From Candidatus Binatia bacterium (GTDB lineage Bacteria; Desulfobacterota; Binatia; UBA9968; JAJDTQ01): DNA of 33,322 bases. Shown in pieces: positions 953 to 32,214 of the stretch (positions are counted from its first letter, which is position 1; each line of letters opens with the position of its first letter). The notes beneath the pieces were generated by a model that was not told where the DNA came from, searched no databases, and saw only the letters and a program-made list of their open reading frames with translations. A program made the translations under genes and the position numbers. The DNA lies in assembly GCA_022824205.1 (NCBI GenBank), contig JAJEAI010000101.1:1-33322 (forward strand), given 5' to 3'.

Positions 953-2344
953 CTACCCGGGGTACGTGGCCTTCGCCTGCCGGCCGTGGCCCTTCTTTCC
1001 CACCACCTTGCCGTCGCGGTACACCGTGGTGCCGCGCACGAACGTGCGTACCGGCCAGCCCTTGAGCGTGCGCCCGGCGTAGGGGCTCCAGCCGATGAGG
1101 CTGAGCACGTCCTCGTCGCGGATCTCCTTCTCGGCGTTCAGGTCCACCAGCACCAGGTCGGCGTCGTAGCCCACCTCGATGCGGCCCTTGTTGTGCACGC
1201 CGAAGATGCGCGCGGGCAGGGTGGAGGTGGCCTCCACCATGCGGTTCAGCGGGATCTTGCCCTTGGAGACGGCGTCCATGAGCAGGCTCATGTAGTACTG
1301 CGCGGACGGCGTCCCGGTGTGCGCCTTCCAACCGTCCTCCCAGCCGATCTCCTTCTCCTCGCGCGTGTGCGGCGCGTGGTCGGTGGCGACGATGTCGATG
1401 GTGCCGTCGCACAGGCCTTCCCACAGGGCCGGCGAGTTCTTTTCCGGGATCCAGTAGGAGAGCGCGTAGGAGCCCAACCGCTCGATCTCGCTCCAGTCCG
1501 ACCCCAGGAAGATCGCCCAGGGGTTCACCTCCGCGGTCACCCGCTGGCCGGCCTCCTTGGCCCGGCGGATCATGTCCACGGTGCCCTCGGTCTGGACGTG
1601 CAGGATGTGCAGGTGCACGCCGGTGGCCGCCTGCAGCCGGATGAGGAACTGGATGGCGGTCTCCCAGATCACCCCGTCGTACGCGGCATAGGCCTTGGCG
1701 TAGGCCAAGCAGTCGCGCTCCCCCCGGTCCCAGTACTTCTTCTCGATGTAGTCCATGAGGGGCTGGTCGTGGGGGTGGACCATGAGCGGCACGTTGGCCG
1801 CGGCGCAGGCCTCCATGATCTCCATGAGCTTGCCGTGGTCGTGGACGCCGATGCCCGGCATGTGCGGGTAGTCCCGGCCGGTGTCCACCACCATGAACAC
1901 CTTGAAGGCGGCGATGCCTTGCTGCGCGAGCTTGGGGATCTCCTCCGGGATGGTGCCGGCGGGATTGACGTTGAAGTCGATGATGGCTTCGCGTTCGTAA
2001 ACCCCGAACAACTGTTCGAGGCGCGGCACCGTGTTGGGCGGCGGCGTCACGTTGGGCATGGCCACGGAGGTGGTGACCCCGCCGGCGGCGCACTGCATGG
2101 TCGCCGTCTGGATGTTCTCCTTGTAGGCGTAGCCGCCCGGCTCGCCGCCCTCGCGGTGGTGCGAGTGCATGTCCACCGCGCCGGGGATGAGCGCCAGGTT
2201 GGTGGCGTCCACCACCTCGGCGGCCTCGGGCGTGGCGCCGGGAGCGTAGATCCCGGCGATGGAGCCGTTCTGGATGCCCACCGAACCCTGGTAGCGGTGG
2301 TCGGCGGTGATGATGTCGGCGTTGGAAATAAGCACGTCCAGCAT
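953..2344 (-). CDS. Dihydroorotase/hydantoinase-family cyclic amidohydrolase
   Basis: A 463-residue TIM-barrel metal-dependent hydrolase of the dihydroorotase/allantoinase/hydantoinase superfamily, which opens cyclic amide or imide rings. The binuclear metal site is visible: D58-x-H60-x-H62 (DMHSHHRE), the Lys that would be carboxylated at K147 (AAFKVFM), H189/H191 (MVHPHDQ), H245/H248 (HILHV) and D321 (VATDHAPH). The length is typical. The ATG at 2344 is preceded by AAGGAG at good spacing. The HREGGEP loop differs from the HxREPG of true dihydroorotases, and no pyrimidine genes lie nearby, so the substrate could be a hydantoin or another cyclic ureide. It is followed upstream on the same strand by the ThrH-like phosphatase, with a REP-like repeat between them. 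Confident on family, not on substrate. Confidence 0.88.
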   Translation of the reverse strand: MLDVLISNADIITADHRYQGSVGIQNGSIAGIYAPGATPEAAEVVDATNLALIPGAVDMHSHHREGGEPGGYAYKENIQTATMQCAAGGVTTSVAMPNVTPPPNTVPRLEQLFGVYEREAIIDFNVNPAGTIPEEIPKLAQQGIAAFKVFMVVDTGRDYPHMPGIGVHDHGKLMEIMEACAAANVPLMVHPHDQPLMDYIEKKYWDRGERDCLAYAKAYAAYDGVIWETAIQFLIRLQAATGVHLHILHVQTEGTVDMIRRAKEAGQRVTAEVNPWAIFLGSDWSEIERLGSYALSYWIPEKNSPALWEGLCDGTIDIVATDHAPHTREEKEIGWEDGWKAHTGTPSAQYYMSLLMDAVSKGKIPLNRMVEATSTLPARIFGVHNKGRIEVGYDADLVLVDLNAEKEIRDEDVLSLIGWSPYAGRTLKGWPVRTFVRGTTVYRDGKVVGKKGHGRQAKATYPG

Positions 2345-2368
2345 GGAAGTTCTCCTTGGTTATGGTCG

Positions 2369-2416
2369 GCGCCCTTCGACGTGGCTGCGCTTGCGCTCCG
2401 CTCGGGACGAACGGCG
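2369..2416. repeat. REP-like palindromic repeat, family B (copy 1)
   Basis: Sequence of the type GCGCCCTTCGAC...GCTCGGGACGAACGGCGC, about 48 bp, in the gap between the amidohydrolase and the ThrH-like gene. Two further copies in opposite orientations occur at 22055-22183. The ends are partly complementary to each other. Dispersed elements of this form are common in large metagenomic genomes. Confidence 0.6.
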
Positions 2417-2429
2417 CCGTTGAAAACTC

Positions 2430-3026
2430 TCACTGTTGCCGCAGCAACCGCGACAGCGTCGCGTAATCGCGCGACACGGGAAAAGCCGGGTAGCGCTTGA
2501 CGATGGCCTCCGGCGGGTTGAACAGCACGCCGCGGTCGGCGGTGCGCAGCATGCTCAGGTCGTTGTAGGAGTCCCCCGCCGCCACCACGCGAAAGCCGAT
2601 CTGCTTGAACGCCTTCACGGCTTTGCGCTTGCCGTCCTTCTGGCGGAGGATGTAGTTTGCGATGTACCCCGACCGGCTCACCGTGAGCCAGTTGCACAGC
2701 AGCGTCGGGTTGCCGAGCTTGCGGATCAGCGGCATGGCGAACTCGTAGTAGGTGTCCGACAAGAGCACTACCTGGAAGTCCCGGTAGAGGTCGTCGAGGA
2801 AGTCCCCGGCCCCGGCGAGGGGCTCCATGCCCGCGATGACGCCCTGGATGTCCGCCAGCCGGATGCGGTTCTTCCGGAGCACCTTGAGGCGGTGCTGCAT
2901 GAGCTGGTCGTAGTCGGAGATGTCGCGCGTGGTGAGCCGCAGGTCGTCGTTGTGGAAATGCTCGGCCACCGCGATCCAGATTTCCGGCAGGAGGACGCCC
3001 TCCAGGTCCAAACAGCAGATTTGCAT
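2430..3026 (-). CDS. thrH: ThrH-type phosphoserine phosphatase / phosphoserine:homoserine phosphotransferase
   Basis: A 198-residue HAD-superfamily enzyme that closely matches the ThrH family, for example Pseudomonas ThrH. The start is MQICCLDLEGVLLPEIW, with the nucleophile D7 and E9 (DLEGV). VVLLSDTYYEF (motif II), the LRQKDGKR block and AAGDSYNDLSML (motif III) follow. ThrH proteins dephosphorylate phosphoserine and can pass the phosphate to homoserine. The open frame extends upstream to 3173, but the family N-terminus begins at the ATG at 3026. The RBS there is weak (GGGACG). In the same window serA and an aminotransferase provide the earlier serine-synthesis steps, but from a separate locus. 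No odd residues were seen. Confidence 0.9.
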   Translation of the reverse strand: MQICCLDLEGVLLPEIWIAVAEHFHNDDLRLTTRDISDYDQLMQHRLKVLRKNRIRLADIQGVIAGMEPLAGAGDFLDDLYRDFQVVLLSDTYYEFAMPLIRKLGNPTLLCNWLTVSRSGYIANYILRQKDGKRKAVKAFKQIGFRVVAAGDSYNDLSMLRTADRGVLFNPPEAIVKRYPAFPVSRDYATLSRLLRQQ

Positions 3027-3193
3027 GATATCGCTACGTCCCGGTTGAATTCCGAGCACCCGCGAGGGCGTCGGCACTGGGGAGCGGCCGGCGGGGCGCC
3101 GCAGGCCCGAAACGGCAGGGTAACACAACGCCCGACGGGAACAAAACCGCGGCCAGGTCGCGTCACAACTCACCGAGCAACGACGATCGAATC

Positions 3194-3479
3194 GTCACCC
3201 CCGCGAAACAGGCTGTGTCAGAACTCCACTCGGACATGAGTTGGCGCCCATGCCCCGAATCGTCATGATATGAATATAAAACTTGTTCAATGATTTCTGG
3301 GCGTTATGGAATCCCGCTACACCCCGATGAGTCATTCCCGCGGAAGCGGGAATCCAGGCGGGGTGGGGCCGGGCAATGAAGTCGCCACAACCCCTCCACC
3401 CGTGGATTCCCGCTTTCGCGGGAATGACGATTCGTAACTTCTCTGCCTCGATGGGTTGCCACAGCCTGTTCGCGGGAAC
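3194..3479. repeat. Nested inverted-repeat element, family A (copy 1)
   Basis: Fills most of the 592-bp gap between 3027 and 3618. The outer arms are 3194-3220 and 3456-3479; they are inverted versions of CCCGCGAAACAGGCTGTG. The inner arms, 3332-3355 and 3403-3428, are TCATTCCCGCG-type sequence read outwards, and each is itself a small hairpin (CCCGCGGAAGCGGG). The same nested layout recurs at 13319-13545. I see no gene in the gap. Confidence 0.8.
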
Positions 3480-3618: not shown

Positions 3619-4359
3619 ATGAGCATCGAAACCGCAACCGTGGACATCCCCGCCGAGGACGGCAAGGCCATGGGCCTCTACGTGGCCACGCCCGACGGCG
3701 ACGGCAGGAAACCGGCGCTGCTGGTGATCATGGAGATCTTCGGCGTCGACGCGCACATGAAGCACGTGACCGAACGCTTCGCCGACGAGGGCTACGTGGC
3801 CGTATCGCCGGATCTCTATTATCGCCTGGACGAGCGGGTCATCCCCAACACCGACCGTGACGCTGCCTTCGCTGCCCGCGGCACCCTCTACGACACCAAG
3901 ATCGTGGAGGACCTGAACCGCGCCATCGCCTACGCCAAGGGACGGGACGACGTGGACCCGGACCGGGTGGGCATCATCGGCTACTGCTTCGGCGGGCGGG
4001 TGTCGTGGATGGCGGCGTGCAACTGCCCGGGCTTGGCGGCCAGCAGCCTGTACTACGGCGGCCAGATCGCCGGCGGCCAGCGGGGCGAGAAGAGCCCGGT
4101 GGAGCCGATGACCCAGGGGAACAACATCAAGATCCCGATGCAGTGCGTGTGGGGCGGACAGGACCAGGGCATCCCGCAGGAGGCCCGCGACGCCATCGAG
4201 TCGACCCTCAAGACCAACAACGTGGACTACGAGTGGCACCTGTACGAGGACGCGGGCCACGCGTTCTTCTGCGACAACCGCCCGAGCTACCACGAGGCAT
4301 CCGCCAAGGACGTCTGGCCCAAGACCCTGGCGTTCATGGCCCGGCACCTGAAGGGGTAG
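3619..4359 (+). CDS. Dienelactone hydrolase family protein
   Basis: A 246-residue alpha/beta hydrolase of the dienelactone hydrolase (carboxymethylenebutenolidase) family. The Cys-Asp-His triad is visible: C123 in GYCFGGR, D182 in WGGQDQG and H214 in DAGHAFF. E39 in IMEIFG matches the Glu that holds the Cys in the resting enzyme. The ATG at 3619 has AGGAGG six bases upstream. An in-frame ATG at 3553 is rejected because it lacks an RBS and the family N-terminus. It is the first gene of the plus-strand block and lies 39 bp from the first hydratase/lyase, so co-transcription is likely. Dienelactone hydrolases act late in chlorocatechol or related ring-cleavage pathways, which suits an aromatic role. 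Many family members, however, act on other esters. Confidence 0.9.
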   Translation: MSIETATVDIPAEDGKAMGLYVATPDGDGRKPALLVIMEIFGVDAHMKHVTERFADEGYVAVSPDLYYRLDERVIPNTDRDAAFAARGTLYDTKIVEDLNRAIAYAKGRDDVDPDRVGIIGYCFGGRVSWMAACNCPGLAASSLYYGGQIAGGQRGEKSPVEPMTQGNNIKIPMQCVWGGQDQGIPQEARDAIESTLKTNNVDYEWHLYEDAGHAFFCDNRPSYHEASAKDVWPKTLAFMARHLKG

Positions 4360-4398
4360 GACCGGGTAGCAAGCAACCATCCAAGGAGGCACGCGCCA

Positions 4399-5235
4399 AT
4401 GGCAACCAAGGAATACAAGACCGTGCTGGTGGAGAAGGAGGACGGCCTCACCTGGGTCATCCTCAACCGTCCGGAAAAGCGCAACGCCATGAACCCGCAG
4501 CTCCACTTCGACATGTACGACGTGGTGACCGAAGCCGAGGGGGACCCGGAAACCCAAGTGATGGTCATCACCGGCGCGGGCAATAGCTGGTGCGCCGGCA
4601 TGGACCTCAAGGAGTTCTTCCGCGAGGGGGACCAGAACCCGGAGTTCCAGCGGCAGGTAGGATGGGCCAGCCAGGAGTGGCGCTGGCGCAAGCTCTTCAC
4701 CTTCCCGAAGCCGACCTTCGCCATGGTCAACGGCTACTGCTTCGGCGGCGCCTTCAGCCCCATGATTGCCTGTGACTTCGCCATCGCCGCCGAAGACGCC
4801 GTCTTCGGCCTGTCAGAGGTCAACTGGGGGATCCTGCCCGGCGGCCTCGTGAGCCGCGTGGTCACCGACGTGTTGAGCCTGCGGGACGGCCTGTACCACG
4901 CCATGACCGGTGACCCGTTCGACGGCAGGAAGGCGGCGGAGATGCGCTTAGTCAACTATGCGGTGCCGGCGGACCGGCTACGGGACGAGACCGTCAAGCT
5001 GGCCAGGAAGCTCATGGAGAAGAACCCCTGGACGCTGCGAACCATCAAGCAGGCCTACAAGCTGGTACGCAACATGGACTACACTCAGGCCGAGGACTAC
5101 CTCATGGCCAAGGAAGCCCAACTCAGGATGCAGGACCGGGAGGACGGTTACAACGAGGGCATCAAGCAGTTCATCGACGACAAGACCTACAAGCCGGGGT
5201 TCGGCCCCATGGCCCGCGTCAACAAGGGTTCCTGA
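4399..5235 (+). CDS. Hydroxycinnamoyl-CoA hydratase/lyase-like crotonase, paralog 1
   Basis: A 278-residue crotonase-fold protein whose whole length resembles p-hydroxycinnamoyl-CoA hydratase/lyase (HCHL/FerB/Ech), including ILNRPEKRNAM, the FGGAFSP oxyanion-hole region and FGLSEVNWGI. HCHL hydrates feruloyl- or coumaroyl-CoA and splits it to an aromatic aldehyde plus acetyl-CoA. The catalytic-type Glu and the Trp of HCHL (E143, W146) appear as E140 and W143. M68 matches HCHL Met70, but HCHL Tyr75 is Phe (F73) and Tyr239 is Met (M236). Those tyrosines contact the phenol, so the substrate may differ. AAGGAGG lies 10 nt before the ATG. The second paralog follows directly. HCHL numbering is from memory. 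Confidence 0.85.
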   Translation: MATKEYKTVLVEKEDGLTWVILNRPEKRNAMNPQLHFDMYDVVTEAEGDPETQVMVITGAGNSWCAGMDLKEFFREGDQNPEFQRQVGWASQEWRWRKLFTFPKPTFAMVNGYCFGGAFSPMIACDFAIAAEDAVFGLSEVNWGILPGGLVSRVVTDVLSLRDGLYHAMTGDPFDGRKAAEMRLVNYAVPADRLRDETVKLARKLMEKNPWTLRTIKQAYKLVRNMDYTQAEDYLMAKEAQLRMQDREDGYNEGIKQFIDDKTYKPGFGPMARVNKGS

Positions 5236-5256
5236 CGCCGCGGGTTCATTCGCGCC

Positions 5257-5285
5257 TTGACTCCGGCAACCCGACTGCATAGAGT
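5257..5285 (+). promoter_or_regulatory. Candidate sigma70 promoter upstream of lyase paralog 2
   Basis: TTGACT (5257-5262), a 17-nt spacer and TAGAGT (5280-5285) lie in the 96-bp gap between the two paralogs, 47 bp before the second ATG. The match is 5/6 for the -35 and 4/6 for the -10, with ideal spacing. It would let paralog 2 and the transporter genes be expressed apart from the upstream genes. Confidence 0.45.
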
Positions 5286-5331
5286 TGGCGGAATCTCAAT
5301 CACTTGAACGTTTCAAGGAGGTACACGTTTA

Positions 5332-6168
5332 ATGGCAACGAAAGAGTACAAGACCGTGCTGGTGGAGAAGGAGGACGGCCTCACCTGGGTCATCCTCAAC
5401 CGTCCGGAGAAGCGCAACGCCATGAGCCCGCAGCTCCACTTCGACATGTACGACGCGGTGACCGAGGCCGAGGGGGACCCGGAGACCCAGGTCATGGTCA
5501 TCACCGGTGCGGGCAATAGCTGGTGCGCCGGCCAGGACCTGAAGGAATACTTCCGCGAGGGCGACAAGAACCCGGCGATGCGCCGCCAGGCGAGCTGGTG
5601 CAGCCAGGAGTGGCGCTGGCGCAAGCTCTTCACGTTCCCCAAGCCCACCATCGCCATGGTCAACGGCTTCTGCTTCGGCGGCGCCTTCACGCCGCTGGTG
5701 GCCTGTGACTTCGCCATCGCCGCGGACGACGCCGTGTTCGGGCTGTCCGAGGTCAACTGGGGCATCCTCCCCGGCGGCCTGGTGAGCCGGGTGGTGACGG
5801 ACATGCTGTCGCTGCGCGACGGCCTCTACCACGCCATGACCGGCGATCCGTTCGACGGCAAGAAGGCCGCCGAGATGCGGCTCGTCAACTACTCGGTGCC
5901 GGCGGACCAGCTCCGGGACGAGACCGTGAAACTGGCGAAGAAGCTCATGGAGAAGAACCCGTGGGCGCTGCGCGCCACCAAGCAGGCCTACAAGCTCGTG
6001 CGCAACATGGACTACTCCCAGGCCGAGGACTACCTGGCCGCCAAGGGCGCGCAGATCAAGCTGCAGGACCGGGAGAGTGGTTACGACGAGGGCATCAAGC
6101 AGTTCATCGACGACAAGACCTACAAGCCGGGGTTCGGCCCCATGGCGCGGGTCAACAAGGCTTCCTAG
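5332..6168 (+). CDS. Hydroxycinnamoyl-CoA hydratase/lyase-like crotonase, paralog 2
   Basis: A 278-residue protein, the same length as its upstream neighbour and without gaps against it. The family landmarks are retained: NRPEKRNAMSP, FGGAFTP, E140 and W143 in FGLSEVNWG. At the HCHL substrate-contact positions it differs the opposite way from paralog 1: Gln68 for Met70, Tyr73 kept, Thr120 for Ser123, Ala236 for Tyr239. The first 200 bases of the two genes are nearly identical, including an identical run of about 60 bases, while later parts diverge more. That suggests a recent tandem duplication or conversion of the 5' end. AAGGAGG lies 10 nt before the ATG. The likely role is hydration and/or retro-aldol cleavage of an aryl- or acyl-CoA; the reaction is inferred. 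Confidence 0.85.
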   Translation: MATKEYKTVLVEKEDGLTWVILNRPEKRNAMSPQLHFDMYDAVTEAEGDPETQVMVITGAGNSWCAGQDLKEYFREGDKNPAMRRQASWCSQEWRWRKLFTFPKPTIAMVNGFCFGGAFTPLVACDFAIAADDAVFGLSEVNWGILPGGLVSRVVTDMLSLRDGLYHAMTGDPFDGKKAAEMRLVNYSVPADQLRDETVKLAKKLMEKNPWALRATKQAYKLVRNMDYSQAEDYLAAKGAQIKLQDRESGYDEGIKQFIDDKTYKPGFGPMARVNKAS

Positions 6169-6202
6169 CCGGCGCGACGGCAGGTGTCACAGTCATGAAG
6201 GC

Positions 6203-6238
6203 GGGGCATCGGCCCGGCGGCGCCCGGACCGATGCCCC
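6203..6238 (+). terminator. Strong hairpin between lyase paralog 2 and the receptor gene
   Basis: GGGGCATCGG (6203-6212) pairs exactly with CCGATGCCCC (6229-6238), and an internal CCGG/CCGG can extend the stem. No T-tract follows, so it may be a weak terminator or an mRNA-stabilising structure rather than a full stop. Confidence 0.45.
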
Positions 6239-6283
6239 AAGAGCCGGAAGACGGCAATCACAGACCCAAGGAGGGAGCAAGCG

Positions 6284-7369
6284 ATGAAGTCAACCTTACA
6301 CGTGCTTTCGACATGCGCCGTGCTGGTGCTCGCACTGCTGCTCGCGACGCCGGCGATGGCCGCGGACAAACCGTTCTATCAAGGGAAGACTCTGAGGCTG
6401 GTGATCGACTTCTCGGCGGGCGGCCCCACCGACATCGAGTGCCGTATCTACGCACGGCATCTGAAGAAGCACCTGAAGGGCGATCCTACCATCGTGGTCA
6501 TGAGCAAGCCGGGTGGCGGCGGCACGCTGGCCATGAACTGGATTTACGAACGCGCGCGCCGGAACGGCACGGTCATGGGCTGCCAGACCGCCAGCGGCCG
6601 CTACCAGGAGTGGTTTGTCGGCGATCCCAAGTCCGTCGGCCTGCGGGCCAACATGGAAGAGATCATTCCGGTCATGTTCACCCCCGTGGTGAGCGTGGGC
6701 GTGGTGTCGACCAAGCTCGATCCCCCGTACAAGCAGCTCGGAGACCTCAAGAAAGCCAAGAACCTGACCGTGGGCGGTTTTCGTGCCGACAGCAGCAAGG
6801 ACCTCAAGTTCCGCGCTCTGTTCGACCTGGCGAGCGTGAAGTACAAGTACGTCACCGGGTACCAGGGATCCGCCGGCCTCCTGTCCGCGTTCCTGCGCGA
6901 CGAGATCAACTACGTGGACGGCAGCACCCCGTTCTACCTGACGCGGGTCAAGCCCATCGCCGTCGACAAGGGCGAGGCCTCGCCCCTGTGGTATGGCAGT
7001 GACGAGAACATTCCCGCCATCGCTCCGGGAGTGCCCGCGCGGGATTTCGTCAAGCAGCTTTCCGGCAAGGACCCGGAGGGACCGTTGTGGCAGCTCTTCC
7101 AGATCCTGAGCAGCTACCGCCAGATCCTGGCCCCGCCGGGCGTGCCCCAAGCGGCCGTCGATGCGATGCGGACGGCCTTCGCGAGCATGAGCAAGGACCC
7201 GGAGTTTCTCGCGGAGTACAAGAAGACCGTGGGTATCGAGCCGCAGATGCTGACCACCCCCAAGGGCATCGAGAACGCCATGAAGCCGTGGACCACGGCG
7301 GGTGACGAGATGAAGCAGTTCCGGCTCAAGTACGTCGAGCAGGGCCGCAAGCAGGCGGGCTCGAAATAG
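6284..7369 (+). CDS. TTT transporter solute-binding receptor (TctC/Bug family)
   Basis: A 361-residue periplasmic binding protein of the Bug/TctC family. It has a clear signal peptide: positively charged start MKS, hydrophobic core VLVLALLLA and cleavage after AMA near residue 26. The family start of the mature chain is present (FYQGKTLRLVIDFSAGGPTD), as are VVMSKPGGGG and the later ILAPPGVPQ block. The receptor catches a carboxylated ligand and hands it to the TctA/TctB membrane pair encoded next. The ATG at 6284 has AAGGAGGG eight bases upstream; longer in-frame starts would spoil the signal peptide. It sits between the hydratase/lyase pair and an acyl-CoA synthetase, which suggests the ligand is a carboxylic acid that enters that pathway. 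The ligand itself cannot be read from sequence. Confidence 0.9.
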   Translation: MKSTLHVLSTCAVLVLALLLATPAMAADKPFYQGKTLRLVIDFSAGGPTDIECRIYARHLKKHLKGDPTIVVMSKPGGGGTLAMNWIYERARRNGTVMGCQTASGRYQEWFVGDPKSVGLRANMEEIIPVMFTPVVSVGVVSTKLDPPYKQLGDLKKAKNLTVGGFRADSSKDLKFRALFDLASVKYKYVTGYQGSAGLLSAFLRDEINYVDGSTPFYLTRVKPIAVDKGEASPLWYGSDENIPAIAPGVPARDFVKQLSGKDPEGPLWQLFQILSSYRQILAPPGVPQAAVDAMRTAFASMSKDPEFLAEYKKTVGIEPQMLTTPKGIENAMKPWTTAGDEMKQFRLKYVEQGRKQAGSK

Positions 7370-7381
7370 GCCATCCACCGC

Positions 7382-7417
7382 TTCCCGTTGCCGGACCGCA
7401 CGGTCCGGCAACGGGAA
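7382..7417 (+). promoter_or_regulatory. Perfect 16-bp intercistronic hairpin between receptor and permease
   Basis: Bases 7382-7397 (TTCCCGTTGCCGGACC) pair without mismatch with 7402-7417 across a 4-nt loop. The stem begins 13 bases after the receptor stop. No T-tract is present. A structure of this kind could protect the receptor mRNA end and reduce read-through, giving more receptor than permease. Confidence 0.65.
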
Positions 7418-7455
7418 CCACAACCCAAGCCACGCATGACCGAGGCTGACACGCA

Positions 7456-8934
7456 ATGCTAGAAGCAGCCCACCAGGCACTCCTGGGAATCTTGTCCTGG
7501 CCGGCCTTCGGCTATCTTCTGCTCGGCGTTGGCTTGGGCGTTTTCTTCGGCATGGTGCCGGGGCTGTCCGGGCTCTCGGGCATGGCCATCCTCTTGCCCT
7601 TCACCTTCGACCTCGGGCCCTACGAGGCCATGGCGCTGCTCATGGGCATGTACGCCATCACGTCCACCGCGGACACCATCTCATCGGTGCTCCTGGGGGT
7701 GCCGGGCACGGCCGGCTCCCAGGCCACCATCATGGACGGCTATCCGCTGGCCAAGAAGGGGGAGGCGGCCCGGGCCTTCGGCGCTGCTTACACGGTGTCG
7801 GCTTTCGGCGGGGTGGTGGGCGCCGTCCTGCTGGTCCTCTCGATCCCGATCCTGAGCCCGCTGGTGCTTTCCTTCGGCGCCCCCGAGTTCTTTCTCCTGG
7901 GTGTCCTGGGCATGGCCATGGTGGGTGCTCTGAGCGGCAACGCTCCGGCCAAGGGCATCCTCGTGGGGCTGTTCGCCCTGCAACTCTCCATGATGGGTTA
8001 TTCGCCGCAGGACGGCATCCCGCGCTACTGGTTCAATACCCCTTATCTCCTGGAAGGGCTCCCCATCGTTCCGTGCGTGCTGGGCCTTTTCTCGCTGCCC
8101 GAAGTCGTGGAGCTGGCGGTGCGCCGAGGCACCTTGGCCGAGGTGCCGGAGATGGGCAAGGGCATGTGGGACGGCGTGCGTGACGCGCTGAGGAACTGGT
8201 GGCTGGCGCTCCGGTGCGCGGTGATCGGTGCCTACGTCGGCTTTATTCCCGGCCTCGGTGCAAGCATCGTCGATTGGGTAGCATACGGCCACGCGGTGCA
8301 GTCCAACAAGGATCCCGAGGCCGAGTTCGGCAAGGGCGAGATACGCGGGGTGATCGCGCCGGAGAGCGCCAACAATGCCATGAAGGGCGGCTCACTGATC
8401 CCGACCATCGCTTTCGGCGTCCCGGGAAGCGCCACCATGGCGATCCTGCTGGGCGCCTTCTTGATCCACGGAATCTACCCGGGGCCGGAGCTCCTGAGCA
8501 CGCGTCTCGACGTTACGTTCTCGGTGATTTGGGCGTTGGTCATCGCCAACATCATTACCGCCGTCGTGTTGATGGGCTGCACCAACCAGTTGGCCAAGGT
8601 CACCACCATCCGTGGCAGCCTCATCATCCCCATCATCCTGGTGCTGGTGTTCATGGGCTCGTGGATGGCGACTCAGGATCTGGGGGACTGGGTGGTGCTG
8701 GTGTCCGCGGGGGCGTTGGGTTACCTCATGAAGCGGTGGGGCTGGCCGCGCCCGCCCATCGCCCTCGGGATCGTCCTGGGTCCCATCATGGAACGCTATC
8801 TCGACATCGCGGTCAGCCGTTACGGCTGGTCGTGGGTGTGGCAGCGCCCCATCGTCATCATCCTGATCCTCGTGACCCTGGCGACTGTGTTCTACGCGAC
8901 CAGGAGCCAGTCGCGCCAGCAGCAGGCCGAGTAA
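7456..8934 (+). CDS. TTT transporter large permease subunit (TctA family)
   Basis: A 492-residue polytopic inner-membrane protein of the TctA (DUF112) family, close to the usual 500 residues. The N-terminal half carries the family blocks GMVPGLSGLSGMAILLPFTF, MYAITSTADTISS and GVPGTAGSQATIMDGYPLAKKGEAARA. A related repeat, GFIPGLGASIVDW and ESANNAMKGGSLIPTIAFGVPGS, is in the second half. Around ten or more hydrophobic segments are evident. With the small subunit it forms the ion-coupled channel that takes substrate from the upstream receptor. It lies 86 bp after the receptor gene and 37 bp before the small subunit. The ATG at 7456 fits the family N-terminus, though no strong RBS is seen. Confidence 0.93.
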   Translation: MLEAAHQALLGILSWPAFGYLLLGVGLGVFFGMVPGLSGLSGMAILLPFTFDLGPYEAMALLMGMYAITSTADTISSVLLGVPGTAGSQATIMDGYPLAKKGEAARAFGAAYTVSAFGGVVGAVLLVLSIPILSPLVLSFGAPEFFLLGVLGMAMVGALSGNAPAKGILVGLFALQLSMMGYSPQDGIPRYWFNTPYLLEGLPIVPCVLGLFSLPEVVELAVRRGTLAEVPEMGKGMWDGVRDALRNWWLALRCAVIGAYVGFIPGLGASIVDWVAYGHAVQSNKDPEAEFGKGEIRGVIAPESANNAMKGGSLIPTIAFGVPGSATMAILLGAFLIHGIYPGPELLSTRLDVTFSVIWALVIANIITAVVLMGCTNQLAKVTTIRGSLIIPIILVLVFMGSWMATQDLGDWVVLVSAGALGYLMKRWGWPRPPIALGIVLGPIMERYLDIAVSRYGWSWVWQRPIVIILILVTLATVFYATRSQSRQQQAE

Positions 8935-8971
8935 GGATGCCTTGCGTGCGACAAGACCGTCGAGGTGCTTG

Positions 8972-9490
8972 ATGGCCACACCAAGGATTCGTGAACACTA
9001 CGTCGAAAGCCTCTTCATCCTCCTGCTGGCTGTGATTTTCGCCGCGGCGGTGTTCACGGCCAGAGGATGGCCCTGGAAGACCGCGTTGTTCCCCATGCTC
9101 ATCGGCGTTGCCGGCTGCATCATCGCCGCGGCCCTCGCGCTGTGGACCGGAGTGAAGGGAGGCGAGGCGCCCACACCCGGCGATACAGGAGGGGCCGCGG
9201 ACATCTTTCTCGACGTGAACCTGCGCAGCGGTGAAGCGCTCGTCCGTACCGCGGTCATCGCCCTGTGGATACTCGGGATCATCGCGGGCACGTGGCTCCT
9301 GGGCCAGATGATCGCCCTGCCGCTGTTCGTTTTTCTGTATCTGAAGCTGGGTTCCGGCGAGAGTTGGCCCATCTCCGTGGGCCTCACCGTATGCATTATC
9401 GCCTTTCTCTACGGCGTGTTCGATCAGGTGATCCACGCGTCGTGGTACGAAGGCGAACTGTGGCGCGCCCTGGGCATCGAGATGTTCTAG
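8972..9490 (+). CDS. TTT transporter small permease subunit (TctB family)
   Basis: A 172-residue membrane protein with about four transmembrane segments: SLFILLLAVIFAAAVF; LFPMLIGVAGCIIAAALAL; LWILGIIAGTWLLGQMIALPLFVFLY; VGLTVCIIAFLYGVF. This is the layout and length of TctB proteins, the small subunit of TTT transporters. The frame can be opened at TTG 8942, but ATG 8972 is preferred: GAGGT lies about 6 nt upstream and the protein then starts with a short cytoplasmic tail. It completes a TctC-TctA-TctB set. TctB sequences are poorly conserved, so position and topology carry most of the weight here. Confidence 0.85.
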   Translation: MATPRIREHYVESLFILLLAVIFAAAVFTARGWPWKTALFPMLIGVAGCIIAAALALWTGVKGGEAPTPGDTGGAADIFLDVNLRSGEALVRTAVIALWILGIIAGTWLLGQMIALPLFVFLYLKLGSGESWPISVGLTVCIIAFLYGVFDQVIHASWYEGELWRALGIEMF

Positions 9491-9530
9491 GAACCGGCCC
9501 GCGAGAAATCTTCCGGAAAGAACTGGATAC

Positions 9531-11612
9531 ATGACGACCGAAGCCACCGAGAGAACTACCATTCGTCCGGCCGCCGACCTGCTGCACGCGAAGAGCGTTG
9601 CCATCGTGGGCGCCTCGCCCAAGGGCAACTGGCCGAACCTGCTCTTCCACAGCCTCAAGGCCGCGGAGTTCCCCGGCAACGTGTTCCTGATCAACCCCAA
9701 CTACGAGGAGTTGTGGGACGCGCCGTGCTACCCGAGCCTGGAAGCGCTGCCGGAGCCCCCCGACCACCTGCTCATGCTGGTGCCGAGCCGGGCGGTGATC
9801 CCGACCCTCAGGCAGGCGGCGCCGCTGGGGGTCAAGGCCGCCACCATCTACAGCGCCGGCTTCGGCGAGGGCACCGATCCCAAGAGCCACGAGCGCGGGC
9901 GCGAGCTGGCCGAGTTCTGCGAGGAGAGCGGCATCGTCTGCTGCGGCCCCAACTGCATGGGCGCGGCGTCGGTGAACCAGCGCATGATGACCTACGCGCA
10001 GCGCCAGCCGCTGCTCAAGTCCGGTCCCGTGGCCGCCGTGTTCCAGAGCGGCGGCTCCCTGGGCAACTGGATGAAGGGGGCGGCCGAGCGCGGCATCGGC
10101 TTCAGCTACGCCATCTCCAGCGGCAACGAGGTGAGCCTGGACGTGGTCGACTACATGTCGTTCCTCATCGACAACGACGAGACCCGGATCATCGTGCTCA
10201 TGGTGGAAGGCATCCGCCGTCCGAGCATGTTCATGGAGACGGCTGCCCGGGCGCTGGAGGCCGACAAGCCCCTCATCGTGGTGAAGCTGGGCCGCTCGGA
10301 GATGGGCAAGCGCCAGGCCATCTCGCACACGGGCTCCCTGGCGGGGGACGACGAGGTTTTCTCCGCGGCGTGCGACCGCTACGGCATGGTGCGCTGCCAC
10401 AGCCTCGAGGACTTGACCGAGATGACTCTCGCGTTCCTGCCGGGGCGGCGCCCCCGGGGCGGGCGCGCCGCCATCGTGGTCAACTCCGGCGGCATGAAGG
10501 GCATCCTGCTGGACCACATCGAGGAGGTGGGCATCGATCTGGCCACCCTGAGCGACGCATCCAACCAGGCGCTGCGCCCGCTCATCCCCGACGACCTGGT
10601 GGTGGAGAACCCGCTGGAGTGCGGCGTCGCCGGCTTCGGCAACGAGAACACCTTCGCCGAGATCGTGCGCATCCACGCCGAGGACGACGGCGTGGACCTG
10701 CTGGCCATCCACGGCGAGCTGCCGCGCTTCGGCGAGAAGCGCAACCCGGACCTGCTGAAGAACATCTCCCGGAGCATCGACAAGCCCATCGTGGCCCACG
10801 CGCGCTCCACCTACAGCCTCATGGACGAGAGCCGCGCCTTTCAGGAAGCCTCGGAAATGCCGCACCTGCAGGGCATCAAGGCCACCCTGCGGGCGCTCAA
10901 CGGCCTCGGCGCCTACGGCCAGCGCCGGCGCCTGGGAATACCGGCGATGCCCCCCGCCGGCGGCAAGGCGGAGGACCTGGAAGGACCGGCGTGGCACCGG
11001 CAGTTGGCCGCTCACGGCCTGACGCCGCCGCGGGAGGCGGTGGCGGACAGCCCGGCGGAGGCCTCCGCCAGGGCCGGGGAGATGAGCTTCCCGGTGGTGC
11101 TGAAGCTCCAGTCGCCCGAGGTGGTGCACAAGACCGAGGTGGGTGGCGTGGTGCTGGGCCTCGATTCAGCGGAAAGAGTGGACCAAGCGGGCACGGAGCT
11201 GTTGGCCAAGGGGCCGGCCGGGTCGAAGCTGTTGGTGCAGGAGATGGTAGGCGGCACCGAGGTCATTCTCGGAGCCCGCGTGGACCCGCAATACGGCCCC
11301 TTCGTCCTGGTGGGCCTGGGCGGGATCTTCGTGGAGGTGCTGAAGGACGTGGCGTTGCGTCTCATCCCGGTCACTACCGAGGACGCGCAGGCCATGCTCC
11401 GCCAGCTCAAGGGCTACAGGGTTCTCGAAGGCGTGCGCGGGCAGGCACCCCGCGACGTCGACGCGCTGGTTCAGGCCATCACCGGCCTGTCCGATCTGTT
11501 TGCCGCGCACCGGGGACACCTCAGCGATCTGGAGATCAATCCGCTGATGGTGCAGGAGGCGGGCGCGGGAGTGGCCGCGGTGGACGTGCGCATCGTCCGC
11601 AGTTCCCAGTAG
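9531..11612 (+). CDS. NDP-forming acyl-CoA synthetase (FerA/AcsD type)
   Basis: A 693-residue fused acyl-CoA synthetase (NDP-forming). The order is an N-terminal CoA-binding Rossmann domain (VAIVGASPKGNWPN from about residue 23), two succinyl-CoA-ligase-like domains with the phosphorylated His at H266 (AISHTGSLAGDDEVF), and a C-terminal ATP-grasp domain with FPVVLKLQSPEVVHKTEVGGV and SDLEINPLMV. It makes an acyl-CoA from acid, CoA and ATP, via acyl phosphate and phosphohistidine. Sphingobium FerA, which makes feruloyl-CoA, is of this type and works with an HCHL-type lyase, as the two paralogs upstream suggest. The gap from the TctB gene is 40 bp. The RBS is weak (GGAAAG). The substrate is inferred from neighbours only. 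Confidence 0.92.
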   Translation: MTTEATERTTIRPAADLLHAKSVAIVGASPKGNWPNLLFHSLKAAEFPGNVFLINPNYEELWDAPCYPSLEALPEPPDHLLMLVPSRAVIPTLRQAAPLGVKAATIYSAGFGEGTDPKSHERGRELAEFCEESGIVCCGPNCMGAASVNQRMMTYAQRQPLLKSGPVAAVFQSGGSLGNWMKGAAERGIGFSYAISSGNEVSLDVVDYMSFLIDNDETRIIVLMVEGIRRPSMFMETAARALEADKPLIVVKLGRSEMGKRQAISHTGSLAGDDEVFSAACDRYGMVRCHSLEDLTEMTLAFLPGRRPRGGRAAIVVNSGGMKGILLDHIEEVGIDLATLSDASNQALRPLIPDDLVVENPLECGVAGFGNENTFAEIVRIHAEDDGVDLLAIHGELPRFGEKRNPDLLKNISRSIDKPIVAHARSTYSLMDESRAFQEASEMPHLQGIKATLRALNGLGAYGQRRRLGIPAMPPAGGKAEDLEGPAWHRQLAAHGLTPPREAVADSPAEASARAGEMSFPVVLKLQSPEVVHKTEVGGVVLGLDSAERVDQAGTELLAKGPAGSKLLVQEMVGGTEVILGARVDPQYGPFVLVGLGGIFVEVLKDVALRLIPVTTEDAQAMLRQLKGYRVLEGVRGQAPRDVDALVQAITGLSDLFAAHRGHLSDLEINPLMVQEAGAGVAAVDVRIVRSSQ

Positions 11613-11614
11613 CG

Positions 11615-11656
11615 GCGCCGTCTGGCGCTCCGTATCCGCGGGGCGCCGGACGGCGT
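11615..11656 (+). terminator. GC-rich hairpin after the acyl-CoA synthetase
   Basis: Immediately after the TAG at 11610-11612, bases 11615-11631 pair with 11640-11656 in a stem of about 16 bp with a few G-U or mismatched positions. There is no T-run, so termination efficiency is uncertain. It marks the likely end of the plus-strand catabolic operon. Confidence 0.5.
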
Positions 11657-11753
11657 CCATCCGTTTCAACAGAGCAGGCAGGTATCGAGGGAAAGTCGCG
11701 TCCGGCCGAAGGCCGGGGCGTGCACACGGCGGGGTGCACCCGTCACGGAACAC

Positions 11754-12002
11754 ATGACCCTTCTCGAAAAGCTCGCGGTGGCGTTGATGGCGGGCTCGTG
11801 GGCGATCACCGCCACGATCCTGCTCTTGCCCTTCGTGGACGTGGAGTACAACCGGCTGGCGGTGGCAGCCGGCATCTACTTTGCCAGCCAACTCGTCTTC
11901 TGGGCCGGCTGCGCCATCGGCGGGCGCGAGTTGGTGCGGCGCTACCGGGAACGGTTCCCGTGGCTGTCGTGGGCCAGCCGGCTCAAGAGAAGGGCCGAAT
12001 GA
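11754..12002 (+). CDS. Small two-helix membrane protein (transporter-suffix-like)
   Basis: An 82-residue protein with two hydrophobic segments, LAVALMAGSWAITATILLLPFV and LAVAAGIYFASQLVFWAGCAIGG, followed by a basic tail, RELVRRYRERFPWLSWASRLKRR. The pattern of a second helix containing QLVFWAG and ending GRELVRRYR recalls the short transporter suffix domain found alone or at the end of transporters. That comparison is from memory and is tentative. The ATG at 11754 has only a weak GGA upstream. The gene lies 141 bp after the acyl-CoA synthetase and converges on the LigA-like gene. The function is unknown. Confidence 0.6.
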   Translation: MTLLEKLAVALMAGSWAITATILLLPFVDVEYNRLAVAAGIYFASQLVFWAGCAIGGRELVRRYRERFPWLSWASRLKRRAE

Positions 12003-12035
12003 GGCTACGGCGTGCGCGGAGGCACCGGTGACCGA

Positions 12036-12347
12036 TCAGCTCTCGAAGTCCGGATATCCCACCGTGGCGGCCTTTTCCTTGTAGTCCTTGACCAGCTCCT
12101 CCCGGTCCATCTCGTGGCGCCAGATGGCCTCGGTGAAGCTCCACAGCAGGAACGGGTGCGCGCCCATGGCATACAGGCTGCCGTAGTCGCGCCGCTCCAG
12201 GGCGCGCCGCTCCTCCGCCGTGAACTCCAGGCGTTCGCCCTTTTCCCATTGGGCGACGAAGCCCGGCGGGTTCTCCACGTAGGCTTCTTCCGCGGCCTGG
12301 TTCATGTTGACCACGTGCATGAACTTGTTCACCAGGTACTTGCTCAC
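12036..12347 (-). CDS. LigA-like small subunit of extradiol ring-cleavage dioxygenase
   Basis: A 103-residue all-helical protein of the LigA (protocatechuate 4,5-dioxygenase alpha subunit) family: SKYLVNKFMHVVNMNQ, then FTAEERRALERRDYGSLYAMGAHPFLLWSF. LigA caps the active site of the LigB catalytic subunit. The preferred start is GTG at 12347, whose GTGA overlaps the TGA stop of the LigB-like gene, indicating translational coupling. An upstream ATG at 12377 would lie inside the LigB-like frame. Here the large subunit gene comes first, the reverse of the classic ligAB order. The physical pairing supports a ring-cleavage role for both, probably on a protocatechuate-like diol. Confidence 0.87.
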   Translation of the reverse strand: MSKYLVNKFMHVVNMNQAAEEAYVENPPGFVAQWEKGERLEFTAEERRALERRDYGSLYAMGAHPFLLWSFTEAIWRHEMDREELVKDYKEKAATVGYPDFES

Positions 12348-13204
12348 AGGCCCGCTCCCTCTTCCTTTTGCTCCCACGCGAAGAACGGCACCGCCGGGAA
12401 CCCCGCGTCCAGCCCCTCCGCGTGCGTGGGGGACGCCCCCTTGGCCACGCCCATGGCCATGAGGAAGTTCAGGAAACCCATGGTCATGTTGCCCGACGGG
12501 ACCATCTGCTCCAGGTTGCAGTCGCGCGCGGCCGCGTCGATGTCGCCGGTGGTGATCCAGCCCACGGCGCGGGCGTCGAAGTCCGCGTCCATCAGGCGCC
12601 GTTCGAACTGCTTGGGGCCGCCGACCTCAAGCGACAGGTGGCCGCTCACCAGGACACCGATGCGCTTGCCGTCGGGCAGGCTGTCGATGACGGAGCGGAT
12701 GGCCTGCCCGACTTCGTAGAAGCGCCGGGCGGTGGGCAGCGGTGGGGCGATGCAGTTGGTCAGGATGGGGACGATGGGGATGTCCATCTCCGGCCGGACG
12801 AACATCATCGGGACCACGATGGAGTGGTCCACCGTCAGCTCGCTGGAATAGGCGAAGTCCACGCCGCGCTGGTAGGCGCCCTCCAGGAGCCGGTTGCACA
12901 GCTCCAGGTCGCCCGCCAGGTCGCACTCCGGCAAGCCGAACTCCCGCACCTCGTCGTAGAAGGTGCCGTGGAAACGGTCCATCTTGCCGATCATGAATGC
13001 CGGCATGTTGTCCATGAAGAACTGGTGCAGGTGGTCGTTGCCGATGGTGATGAGCACGTCCGGCTTGTGCCGCGCCAGCTTCGCGCGCATCATCGCGATC
13101 CGTTCCCGCACCTTGGCCGCCCCCGGAGGCTGCTGCTCCTGCTGGAACAGCTTGGGCATGAACGGGTTGTGAGTGATGCCGAGCATGGTGACGAGTTGCG
13201 CCAT
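12344..13204 (-). CDS. LigB-like catalytic subunit of extradiol dioxygenase
   Basis: A 286-residue class III extradiol dioxygenase (LigB superfamily), which opens catecholic rings next to the hydroxyls using Fe(II) and O2. The expected metal and acid/base residues fit in position: H12 (ITHNPFM), H58/H60 (GNDHLHQF), E232 (CNLEQM) as the probable metal Glu, and H189 (VSGHLSLE) as the probable catalytic His. For comparison, Sphingomonas LigB has H12, H61, E242 and H195 (from memory). The ATG at 13204 has GAGGA upstream; the longer in-frame start at 13240 lacks that. It overlaps the LigA-like gene by 4 bp. Substrates of this family include protocatechuate, gallate and aminophenols, so the exact diol is open. 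Confidence 0.9.
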   Translation of the reverse strand: MAQLVTMLGITHNPFMPKLFQQEQQPPGAAKVRERIAMMRAKLARHKPDVLITIGNDHLHQFFMDNMPAFMIGKMDRFHGTFYDEVREFGLPECDLAGDLELCNRLLEGAYQRGVDFAYSSELTVDHSIVVPMMFVRPEMDIPIVPILTNCIAPPLPTARRFYEVGQAIRSVIDSLPDGKRIGVLVSGHLSLEVGGPKQFERRLMDADFDARAVGWITTGDIDAAARDCNLEQMVPSGNMTMGFLNFLMAMGVAKGASPTHAEGLDAGFPAVPFFAWEQKEEGAGL

Positions 13205-13318: not shown

Positions 13319-13545
13319 TGTCATTCCCGCGGAACAGGCCGTGTCAAAGCTGCCCTCAAGCTGGAAACAGCACCTCCCCCCGAAACGTCATTCCCGCGGA
13401 AGCGGGAATCCAGGGGTGGAGAGGGGGCAAACGGGCGTATCCCCCATCTCGCCCCGCCTGGATTCCCGCTTTCGCGGGAATGACGTTTCGAAGGGGCTGT
13501 GCCTTGCGAGTTCTGACACAGCCGCGGAAGCGGGAATCCAGGCGG
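13319..13545. repeat. Nested inverted-repeat element, family A (copy 2)
   Basis: Occupies most of the 352-bp gap between the LigB-like and MDR dehydrogenase genes. The left outer arm, 13319-13347, carries CCGCGGAACAGGCCGTGTCA. The inner palindromic pair is 13384-13409 and 13457-13487 (AAACGTCATTCCCGC read inwards from both ends). The right outer part, 13508-13523, is the exact reverse complement of 16 bases at 3211-3226 in copy 1. An extra half-copy of the inner arm (GGAAGCGGGAATCCAGG) sits at 13526-13542, almost touching the stop of the dehydrogenase at 13557. Confidence 0.8.
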
Positions 13546-13556
13546 TGGAAGGGGTG

Positions 13557-14612
13557 TCAGCCCAACGTCGGGTCCAGCACAATCTTGCCGACGATCCCGC
13601 CCCGTTCCAGCAGCTCGTGCGCCTCTTTCACTCGCGCCAGCGGCATGGTGCGGTCGATGATGGCGCGGACCACGCCCCGGCCCGCCAGCGACAGGGCCAG
13701 CTCCACGTCCTTGCGGGTGGCACCGGGCTGCCCGGTGATGCGGATGCGCCTGAGGTAGAGCCGCTTCACGTCCAGCGGTACGGTGCCGCCGCCGTGGGCG
13801 CCCGCGGTCACCAGACGGCCGGCGAAGGCGAGGCTGTTGAAGGCCCCGGGCCAGAGGGTCGGGTCGGCGATGTTCTCGAACAGCACGTCGACGCCGTGGC
13901 CGTCGGTGATGCGCAGCACTTCCGTCTCCAGGTCCTGCTCCCGGTAGTTGACCGCGAACTCGGCGCCGTAGCCGAGGGCGCCTTCGGCCCTGGAATCGGT
14001 CCCGGCGGCGGCGATGACCCGAGCCCCCAGGTGCCGCGCGATCTGCACGCCGCAACTGCCCAGGGCGCCCGCGGCGCCCATGATCAGCACCCATTCGTCC
14101 TTCACGAGCCGTGCGTGGTTGACCAGCAGGTTGATGGCGGTGGGGAAGTGGCGCGTGACCACCGAGGCTTCACCGAAAGACAGGTTGTCCGGGATCGGGA
14201 ACACGTTCTCCGCGGGCACGGTCACGTACTCCGCGTAGCCGCCCCAGCGGTCCAGCCCCAGGTGCTTGCTGCGGAAGCACGAGTCTTCCCGGCCCATGCG
14301 GCAGAAGCGGCACTCGCCGCAGCGGATGGATGCCACTACCGCGACCCGCTCACCCGAGCGCGCCGACGCCACTCCGTCCCCCGTGGCCGCCACCACGCCC
14401 GCGGGGTCGGTGCCGAGCACCACCGGGAACCGGAGGTTGGTGCGATAGCGGCCTTGCCGCACCGCGATATCCAGTGTCTGATTGACCGAAACGGAGTGTA
14501 CCTTGATCAGCACCTCTCCCGCCGCGGGCGACGGGACGGGAAGCTGCTCCATCCGCATCACGTCGACGTCGCCGAACTCCCGTACGACAACGGCCTTCAT
14601 CGTAGTCTGCAT
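13557..14612 (-). CDS. MDR-family zinc-type dehydrogenase / quinone oxidoreductase
   Basis: A 351-residue medium-chain dehydrogenase/reductase. The GroES-like half carries the structural zinc site C98-x2-C101-x2-C104-x7-C112 (CGECRFCRMGREDSC). The nucleotide-binding half has MGAAGALGSCGVQIARHLGA. The catalytic zinc ligands appear to be absent: the usual GHE is GTD (LGTDPAGVV) and no early catalytic Cys is seen. That resembles NADPH:quinone oxidoreductase or enoyl reductase members that keep only the structural metal. The start may be ATG 14612 (AGGGG nearby) or ATG 14600. It is transcribed towards the LigB-like gene with a repeat between them. It may reduce an aldehyde, quinone or enone from the neighbouring catabolism, but this is inference. 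Confidence 0.88.
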   Translation of the reverse strand: MQTTMKAVVVREFGDVDVMRMEQLPVPSPAAGEVLIKVHSVSVNQTLDIAVRQGRYRTNLRFPVVLGTDPAGVVAATGDGVASARSGERVAVVASIRCGECRFCRMGREDSCFRSKHLGLDRWGGYAEYVTVPAENVFPIPDNLSFGEASVVTRHFPTAINLLVNHARLVKDEWVLIMGAAGALGSCGVQIARHLGARVIAAAGTDSRAEGALGYGAEFAVNYREQDLETEVLRITDGHGVDVLFENIADPTLWPGAFNSLAFAGRLVTAGAHGGGTVPLDVKRLYLRRIRITGQPGATRKDVELALSLAGRGVVRAIIDRTMPLARVKEAHELLERGGIVGKIVLDPTLG

Positions 14613-32033: not shown

Positions 32034-32072
32034 AAAAAAAAGCCTGAACCTCTCTGGCATAGAGACCCAGGC
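32034..32072 (-). terminator. Intrinsic terminator / expression platform of the leader
   Basis: On the minus strand, GCCTG and TCTCT pair with AGAGA and CAGGC (32072 down to 32042), followed at once by eight T residues (32041-32034). This is a textbook Rho-independent terminator placed 134 bp before the first operon gene. Its 5' arm uses the GCCTGGG bases that also form the 3' end of the riboswitch-like aptamer, so the two folds exclude each other. Confidence 0.85.
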
Positions 32073-32184
32073 GTTCGGCCTTCCATCAAGTCAGGTGTCG
32101 CGTCTCTTCATGAGCGCGTTCGCGAGACGCCACACTGGCACTCCCCTGTGGTGAACTCCACGTACACGCCAGTTGTGCGACTTT
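32065..32184 (-). ncRNA. Probable ZTP/ZMP (pfl) riboswitch aptamer
   Basis: The minus strand shows the pfl/ZTP consensus pieces in order: ACTGGCG (32173-32167), a short GTGG-AGTTCA-CCAC hairpin (32161-32148) and GGGGAG (32146-32141). CAC/GTG pairing around this core forms P1. A variable hairpin follows (GCGTCTC with GAGACGC), and then CGCCTGGGT (32073-32065), which matches the conserved CGCCUGGGC. ZTP riboswitches sense ZMP/ZTP, which builds up when 10-formyl-THF is short, and turn on purine and one-carbon genes. The downstream aminotransferase-serA-purA operon fits that role. Ligand binding here normally prevents terminator formation, giving an ON switch. The consensus is compared from memory. 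Confidence 0.8.
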
Positions 32185-32185
32185 C

Positions 32186-32214
32186 TTCGTAACCCGGACG
32201 GGCGGCTTTGTCAA
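32186..32214 (-). promoter_or_regulatory. Candidate promoter for the riboswitch-controlled operon
   Basis: Minus strand: perfect -35 TTGACA (32214-32209), 17-nt spacer, -10-like TACGAA (32191-32186; 3/6). A transcript would start near 32181-32179, right at the first aptamer stem, which supports the assignment. Confidence 0.6.

Follow-up and report, generated by a model that had tools for sequence, protein, structure and literature searches.

A conserved gene run with a probable role in uptake and activation of a carboxylic acid

We analyzed a 33,322-nucleotide stretch of DNA (hereafter, the window) from a Candidatus Binatia bacterium, in which a first-pass annotation made from the sequence alone had proposed an island for the catabolism of aryl acids. 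It corresponds to contig C116 in a draft genome of 4.8 Mb, with 97% completeness and 4.9% contamination. The ends of the proposed island were borne out: it runs from the start of a dienelactone-hydrolase-family hydrolase gene (DLH) at 3619 to the start of a LigB-like gene at 13204. DLH (3619-4359, plus strand) is the first gene of a putative operon that continues on the same strand with two tandem crotonase genes resembling p-hydroxycinnamoyl-CoA hydratase/lyase (HCHL1, 4399-5235; HCHL2, 5332-6168), the receptor (TctC, 6284-7369), large permease (TctA, 7456-8934) and small permease (TctB, 8972-9490) of a tripartite tricarboxylate transporter (TTT) importer, and an NDP(ADP)-forming acyl-CoA synthetase (ACD, 9531-11612). 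From DLH to ACD the genes are separated by 37-115 nt; we placed the start of TctB at the ATG at 8972, with a TTG at 8942 upstream as an alternative. Beyond ACD lie a gene for an 82-aa membrane protein (11754-12002, plus strand) and, on the minus strand, genes for a LigA-like small subunit (12036-12347), a LigB-like protein (12344-13204) and, upstream of this pair, a zinc-binding-type dehydrogenase of the MDR superfamily (13557-14612; PF08240 and PF00107).

The order HAD-DLH-HCHL-HCHL-TctC-TctA-TctB-ACD-small membrane protein is kept in all readable members of the genus (L031-L035, L121, L122, L124 and shorter loci), with about 70-98% identity for each operon protein. Recurrence at this level of identity argues that the gene arrangement is not due to chance, and the grouping of importer, synthetase and HCHL-type genes put forward in the first-pass annotation holds throughout the genus. 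The outcome that this annotation named as refuting, a lack of joint conservation among the neighbors, did not occur for the operon. The small membrane protein, which has two hydrophobic segments and no Pfam match, shares this synteny.

The individual assignments are mostly well supported. DLH scores 186 bits against PF01738, in agreement with its earlier identification, and carries the cysteine nucleophile motif GYCFGG with Asp and His downstream in the sequence. For the importer, also recognized previously, TctA is unambiguous (PF01970, 419 bits); TctB (PF07331, 27.4 bits, cut-off 29.1), with four hydrophobic segments, and TctC (PF03401, 24.2 bits, cut-off 27) fall slightly under their Pfam cut-offs and are adjacent to it. 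Because of its score, TctC was modeled with AlphaFold2 (AF2) from 25 aligned sequences. The model (pLDDT 89) matches 11 solved TTT receptors at Z 23-27, among them TphC, Bug27, BugD, MatC and the oxoadipate receptor Rpa4515, while the next group of structures reaches Z 14.8 or less; judged by its modeled fold, TctC is a TTT receptor. ACD contains the domains CoA_binding_2, Succ_CoA_lig and ATP-grasp_5 (PF13380, PF13607 and PF13549), and its His266 does not vary among 47 aligned ACDs. The same three domains are reported for FCS1, an active feruloyl-CoA synthetase, together with a phospho-His267 (PMC6388921), to which His266 corresponds. Activation of an acid with CoA by ACD is thus well supported by the domain architecture and this residue; of the earlier label of a FerA-type synthetase, the architecture and the phosphohistidine stand, whereas activation of ferulate in particular is not supported.

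The module outside the genus

From a set of 84,980 species represented by a single genome each, we collected 80 HCHL-family loci, 75 of which lie outside the genus. Around these 75, the density of TctC genes was 0.074 per kb up to 4 kb from the HCHL gene and 0.015 per kb between 4 and 10 kb, and ACD genes numbered 18 and 0 at the same distances, a near/far comparison that guards against TctC-rich genomes (the window's own genome has 29 TctC matches) but whose loci are not phylogenetically independent. Both genes occurred at 10 HCHL loci, and those of the 10 for which the tree gives a name are from Alphaproteobacteria. In the ACD tree, the ACD of the window and the orthologues from Binatia are sister (support 100/97) to a clade made up solely of HCHL-adjacent ACDs. 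This enrichment beside HCHL genes in other phyla further supports the grouping. The first-pass annotation had also called the combination with a TTT system unusual, which does not agree with this enrichment, nor with published catabolic clusters: TTT importers are known beside aromatic-acid genes (TphC/TpiBA; PMC8556258) and with arylmalonate decarboxylase clusters (PMC4996985). Our search of one literature library found no paper on aromatic catabolism in Binatota.

A gene for a CaiB-type CoA transferase lies within 5 kb of an HCHL-like gene at several Binatia-like loci (L037, L038, L044, L046, L047, L049 and others), and in another family of the order ACD orthologues lie away from HCHL. Together these two observations suggest that the CoA-activating partner, ACD or a CaiB-type CoA transferase, is exchangeable.

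Our combined findings make it fairly probable that the plus-strand run from DLH to ACD is one operon for the use of an external carboxylic acid. The basis for this was seen directly, namely gene content, order and conservation, domain architecture, the key Glu and His residues, and the receptor fold; from it we infer co-transcription and every reaction step. TctC would capture the acid in the periplasm for import by TctAB with an ion gradient, and ACD would convert it with ATP to the acyl-CoA thioester, releasing ADP and Pi, through phospho-His266. The two HCHL-like crotonases would then hydrate the activated C2=C3 bond through the equivalent of Glu143, with or without retro-aldol cleavage, and the DLH-type hydrolase would open a lactone or thioester product. 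An aryl-substituted or alpha,beta-unsaturated acid is the probable substrate; that it is aryl we hold slightly less probable than the opposite.

The crotonases lie in a clade apart from characterized HCHL

Each HCHL copy scores 395 bits against PRK09120, 'p-hydroxycinnamoyl CoA hydratase/lyase', well over the cut-off of 276, and the two are identical at 244 of 278 residues. The tandem duplication arose inside the genus, with the copies separating in the tree (support 94/99). The window proteins fall in a clade (97/80) apart from that (100/99) containing the crystallized HCHL 2J5I and L174, a plasmid protein that, among solved structures, matches the feruloyl-CoA lyase 7XWC best. At 2J5I positions 70, 75, 120, 123, 143 and 239, the residues are MYGSEY in 2J5I, MFGSEM in HCHL1 and QYGTEA in HCHL2; the catalytic Glu143 is therefore kept in both copies. 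Residue 70 acts through its backbone. We considered the loss of Tyr239 as decisive evidence against a lyase and rejected it, as Tyr239 is missing from 7XWC too.

Aldehyde dehydrogenase genes were found within 5 kb of none of the 65 Gln70-type loci and of 5 of the 14 Met70-type loci (Fisher p 9e-5, in a test that treats related rows as independent and with a profile that is sensitive to ProA-like sequences); a sixth case (L109), which shares a few bases with its HCHL match, was not counted. Since an enzyme that releases an aromatic aldehyde would be expected to have an aldehyde dehydrogenase as partner, aldehyde release is doubtful. We judge simple hydration, or action on a different substrate, to be no less likely than the formation of vanillin. 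Thus, of the 'two lyases' of the first-pass annotation, the two HCHL-family genes stand, whereas their function as hydroxycinnamoyl-CoA lyases is put in doubt by the separate clade and by the lack of a linked aldehyde dehydrogenase. More generally, our findings suggest that the broad annotation 'p-hydroxycinnamoyl-CoA hydratase/lyase' covers a large clade with different neighbors and active-site residues, which probably has another substrate or outcome.

A LigB-like protein with altered active-site residues

The LigB-like protein matches PF02900 (97 bits, cut-off 26.3), yet it reaches 118 bits against a cut-off of 290 for the class III extradiol NCBIfam model. The LigA-like gene (PF07746, 22.1 bits, cut-off 25.3) overlaps it by 4 bases, with an identical overlap in plasmid relatives. 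In LigB, His12, His61 and Glu242 serve as iron ligands, with His127 and His195 in contact with the substrate (PMC11926856). The window protein keeps the three equivalents of His12, His61 and His127 (H24, H70 and H139). Both His of the 2-His-1-Glu iron site are thus present, but Glu242 is replaced and the catalytic His195 is lost as well, its equivalent being Leu204 here and Asn in two relatives. The three retained His, the Leu in place of His195 and the loss of Glu242 extend to all 28 aligned Binatia rows (two of which are the window's own gene and some of which are one genome fetched twice), and Glu242 is likewise replaced in nine relatives from other phyla. A new constant His201 and Glu205, in the motif SGHLSLEVGGP, are found in the window protein and all 28 Binatia rows; the four-His signature and both losses recur in nine relatives, eight of them from alphaproteobacterial or Rhodococcus plasmids and one from Nonomuraea, with Glu205 missing from two of these nine. 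The classical pattern is retained in five proteins aligned for comparison, one of them the LigB encoded on contig C21 of this genome. An AF2 model of the LigB-like protein was poor (pLDDT 46.7). The alignment supports a rebuilt active site, and by it the protein lacks two defining features of LigAB dioxygenases and should not be filed as one, contrary to its earlier classification as a 'LigAB-like dioxygenase' and to the annotation of its family in public records as 'extradiol ring-cleavage dioxygenase'. In another LigB-like group (L152-L154, L092, L099), His61 is changed to Gln (NDQ) while His195 and Glu242 are kept; two members, L092 and L099, lie within 10 kb of HCHL or ACD genes.

The order MDR-LigB-LigA recurs in many Binatia genomes, at L131, L133, L148, L157-L159 and other loci, and the MDR partner is kept in another family of the order. 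In four rhizobial and Rhodococcus plasmid relatives (L168-L171, around 9001-9861), the pair adjoins genes for a CaiB-type CoA transferase and a citryl-CoA lyase, mostly with an amidohydrolase, and in a Rhodococcus relative it also occurs with an MhpA-type hydroxylase. An IclR-type or other regulator is also found in the plasmid neighborhoods. Tentatively, and as something still less probable than not, we propose that the pair represents a widespread, unrecognized metalloenzyme family with four invariant His (24, 70, 139 and 201) whose reaction would be distinct from the classical extradiol cleavage of catechols; its pathway partners would be CoA transferase and citryl-CoA lyase in Alphaproteobacteria and Actinomycetota and the MDR dehydrogenase in Binatota.

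We rejected the window LigAB as the protocatechuate dioxygenase of this genome, because a canonical LigAB-type pair (about 95.9-97.2 kb, beside a TTT importer) and a PcaHG pair over the equivalog cut-offs (about 83-84.4 kb) are present on C21. These belong to an aromatic-acid region (about 83-103 kb; L177, L178) that also holds three thiamine pyrophosphate enzymes, TTT genes and a 3,4-dihydroxyphthalate decarboxylase-like gene near its cut-off (195 bits, cut-off 200). The draft genome, in which LigM-type demethylases were not searched for, yielded no VanA C-terminal domain and no PobA or LigK above its cut-off.

Alternative interpretations

Along the lines of the first-pass annotation, a full Fer-type route for hydroxycinnamates would have the TTT system import ferulate or p-coumarate, ACD act as FerA, the two crotonases act as FerB to yield an aromatic aldehyde and acetyl-CoA, and the LigAB-like pair carry out ring opening. 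The equivalog scores of the crotonases and the FCS1-type architecture of the synthetase favor this, a FerA_B3 and FerB_B11 pair of this type converts ferulate to vanillin in vitro (PMC5863372), and the feruloyl-CoA lyase 7XWC resembles the window proteins in lacking Tyr239. Nonetheless, the position of the crotonases apart from both 2J5I and the 7XWC relative, the Gln70-type loci devoid of aldehyde dehydrogenase, the absence of a VanA-type domain from the genome and the loss of Glu242 and His195 from the LigB-like protein all argue against this route, and we regard it as improbable. Import of an aliphatic unsaturated or dicarboxylic acid of C4-C8, with activation by ACD and with the HCHL-like proteins as plain enoyl-CoA hydratases, is a better candidate, though still an unlikely one. 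It accords with the aliphatic ligands of most characterized TTT receptors (PMC8556258), the altered residues around the crotonase substrate, the lack of a linked aldehyde dehydrogenase and the CaiB-type CoA transferase near some relatives. Against it, the solved structures nearest to the crotonases belong without exception to hydroxycinnamoyl- or feruloyl-CoA enzymes, at 321 bits compared with at most 152 for ordinary enoyl-CoA hydratases. Our own reading of the run as a single operon for the use of an external carboxylic acid must in turn be set against several observations. TctC fits the receptors for malate, oxoadipate, nicotinate and terephthalate about equally well, so that the fold match says nothing about its ligand; the ACD superfamily also includes enzymes for acetate, hydroxyacids and dimethylsulfoniopropionate; and the ACD orthologues of the other family in the order (62-65% identical) are not neighbors of HCHL, so that the grouping seen in the genus may in part be historical.

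The relation of the LigAB-like pair to the operon can be judged from gene neighborhoods. The pair lies directly beside ACD in five genomes of the genus (G000, G004, G005, G007, G008) and about 5 kb from it in two (G002, G006), and in five genomes of another family (G011, G012, G018, G022, G032) ACD and LigAB occur on one contig, no more than about 10 kb apart. This proximity in most of the genus would fit a single pathway in which the pair, with MDR, acts on the operon product by an unusual, non-classical reaction. However, G001 (4 contigs, 99% complete) has an intact operon and no LigB orthologue, its best match being 35% identical as opposed to 91-96% elsewhere in the genus; LigAB-MDR is encoded on the opposite strand; the pair has its own conserved partner in MDR; and the annotated neighbors of the rhizobial and Rhodococcus relatives include CoA transferase, citryl-CoA lyase and amidohydrolase and no HCHL or TTT. 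We therefore think a single pathway rather unlikely. The opposite strand, the loss of Glu242 and His195 and the lack of an orthologue in the operon-keeping G001 indicate that MDR-LigB-LigA is a separate, convergent unit and not an established step of the operon, and the role in ring opening previously given to LigAB is not supported.

The conserved run of genes proposed for uptake, activation and hydration is real and should be set apart from an over-read story of ferulate and LigAB. If our readings of the HCHL and LigAB-like proteins hold, annotations of aromatic degradation in many genomes need correction, and both families, of which the LigAB-like one is the more novel, are directly testable enzymes.

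Other features of the window and genome

Divergent from DLH, a dihydroorotase/hydantoinase-like amidohydrolase and a HAD phosphatase are encoded on the minus strand (953-3029) and are syntenic in the genus. A ZMP/ZTP riboswitch (32058-32186, minus strand; RF01750, 42.9 bits, gathering threshold 39) lies directly upstream of an aminotransferase-like gene, and the genes that follow resemble SerA and PurA, judged from their translations. A dispersed palindromic repeat occurs outside both ends of the island (3331-3434 and 13385-13484). A special status for these copies was considered and rejected, since the core pattern has ~680 matches genome-wide (353 forward, 330 reverse; 0 in a reversed control). 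A scan for promoters and terminators gave results at chance level. In the named collection, the genomes closely related to this one are metagenome-assembled genomes of Candidatus Binatia or 'Deltaproteobacteria' (L031-L035); their isolate names suggest an origin from sponges, and the bacterium studied here is probably a sponge symbiont.

Comparison with known systems

The importer resembles the terephthalate system TphC/TpiBA (PMC8556258) in its receptor fold (Z 25-26) and in the catabolic genes beside it, whereas sequence identity is just 17-19% and the window operon has a complete TctA/TctB. The synthetase is like FerA/FCS1 in being NDP-forming, in its three Pfam domains and phosphohistidine, and in sharing an operon with an HCHL-family crotonase; unlike the FerA/FerB systems, such as that of Sphingobium SYK-6, this operon includes a TTT importer and no aldehyde dehydrogenase. 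The crotonases differ from FerB in belonging to another clade, in changes at positions 70, 75, 123 and 239 and in their duplication. Sequence comparison (321 bits) places them in the superfamily and fold of the Pseudomonas fluorescens HCHL 2J5I, with which they also have Gly120 and Glu143 in common, and they depart from it at Phe75 and Met239 in copy 1 and at Gln70, Thr123 and Ala239 in copy 2, as well as in their linked genes. Similarly, the LigB-like protein shares with the protocatechuate 4,5-dioxygenase LigAB (1B4U) the PF02900 domain, a candidate small LigA-like partner and the equivalents of His12, His61 and His127, but differs from it in the absence of Glu242 and His195, in the invariant new His201 and in its gene partners.

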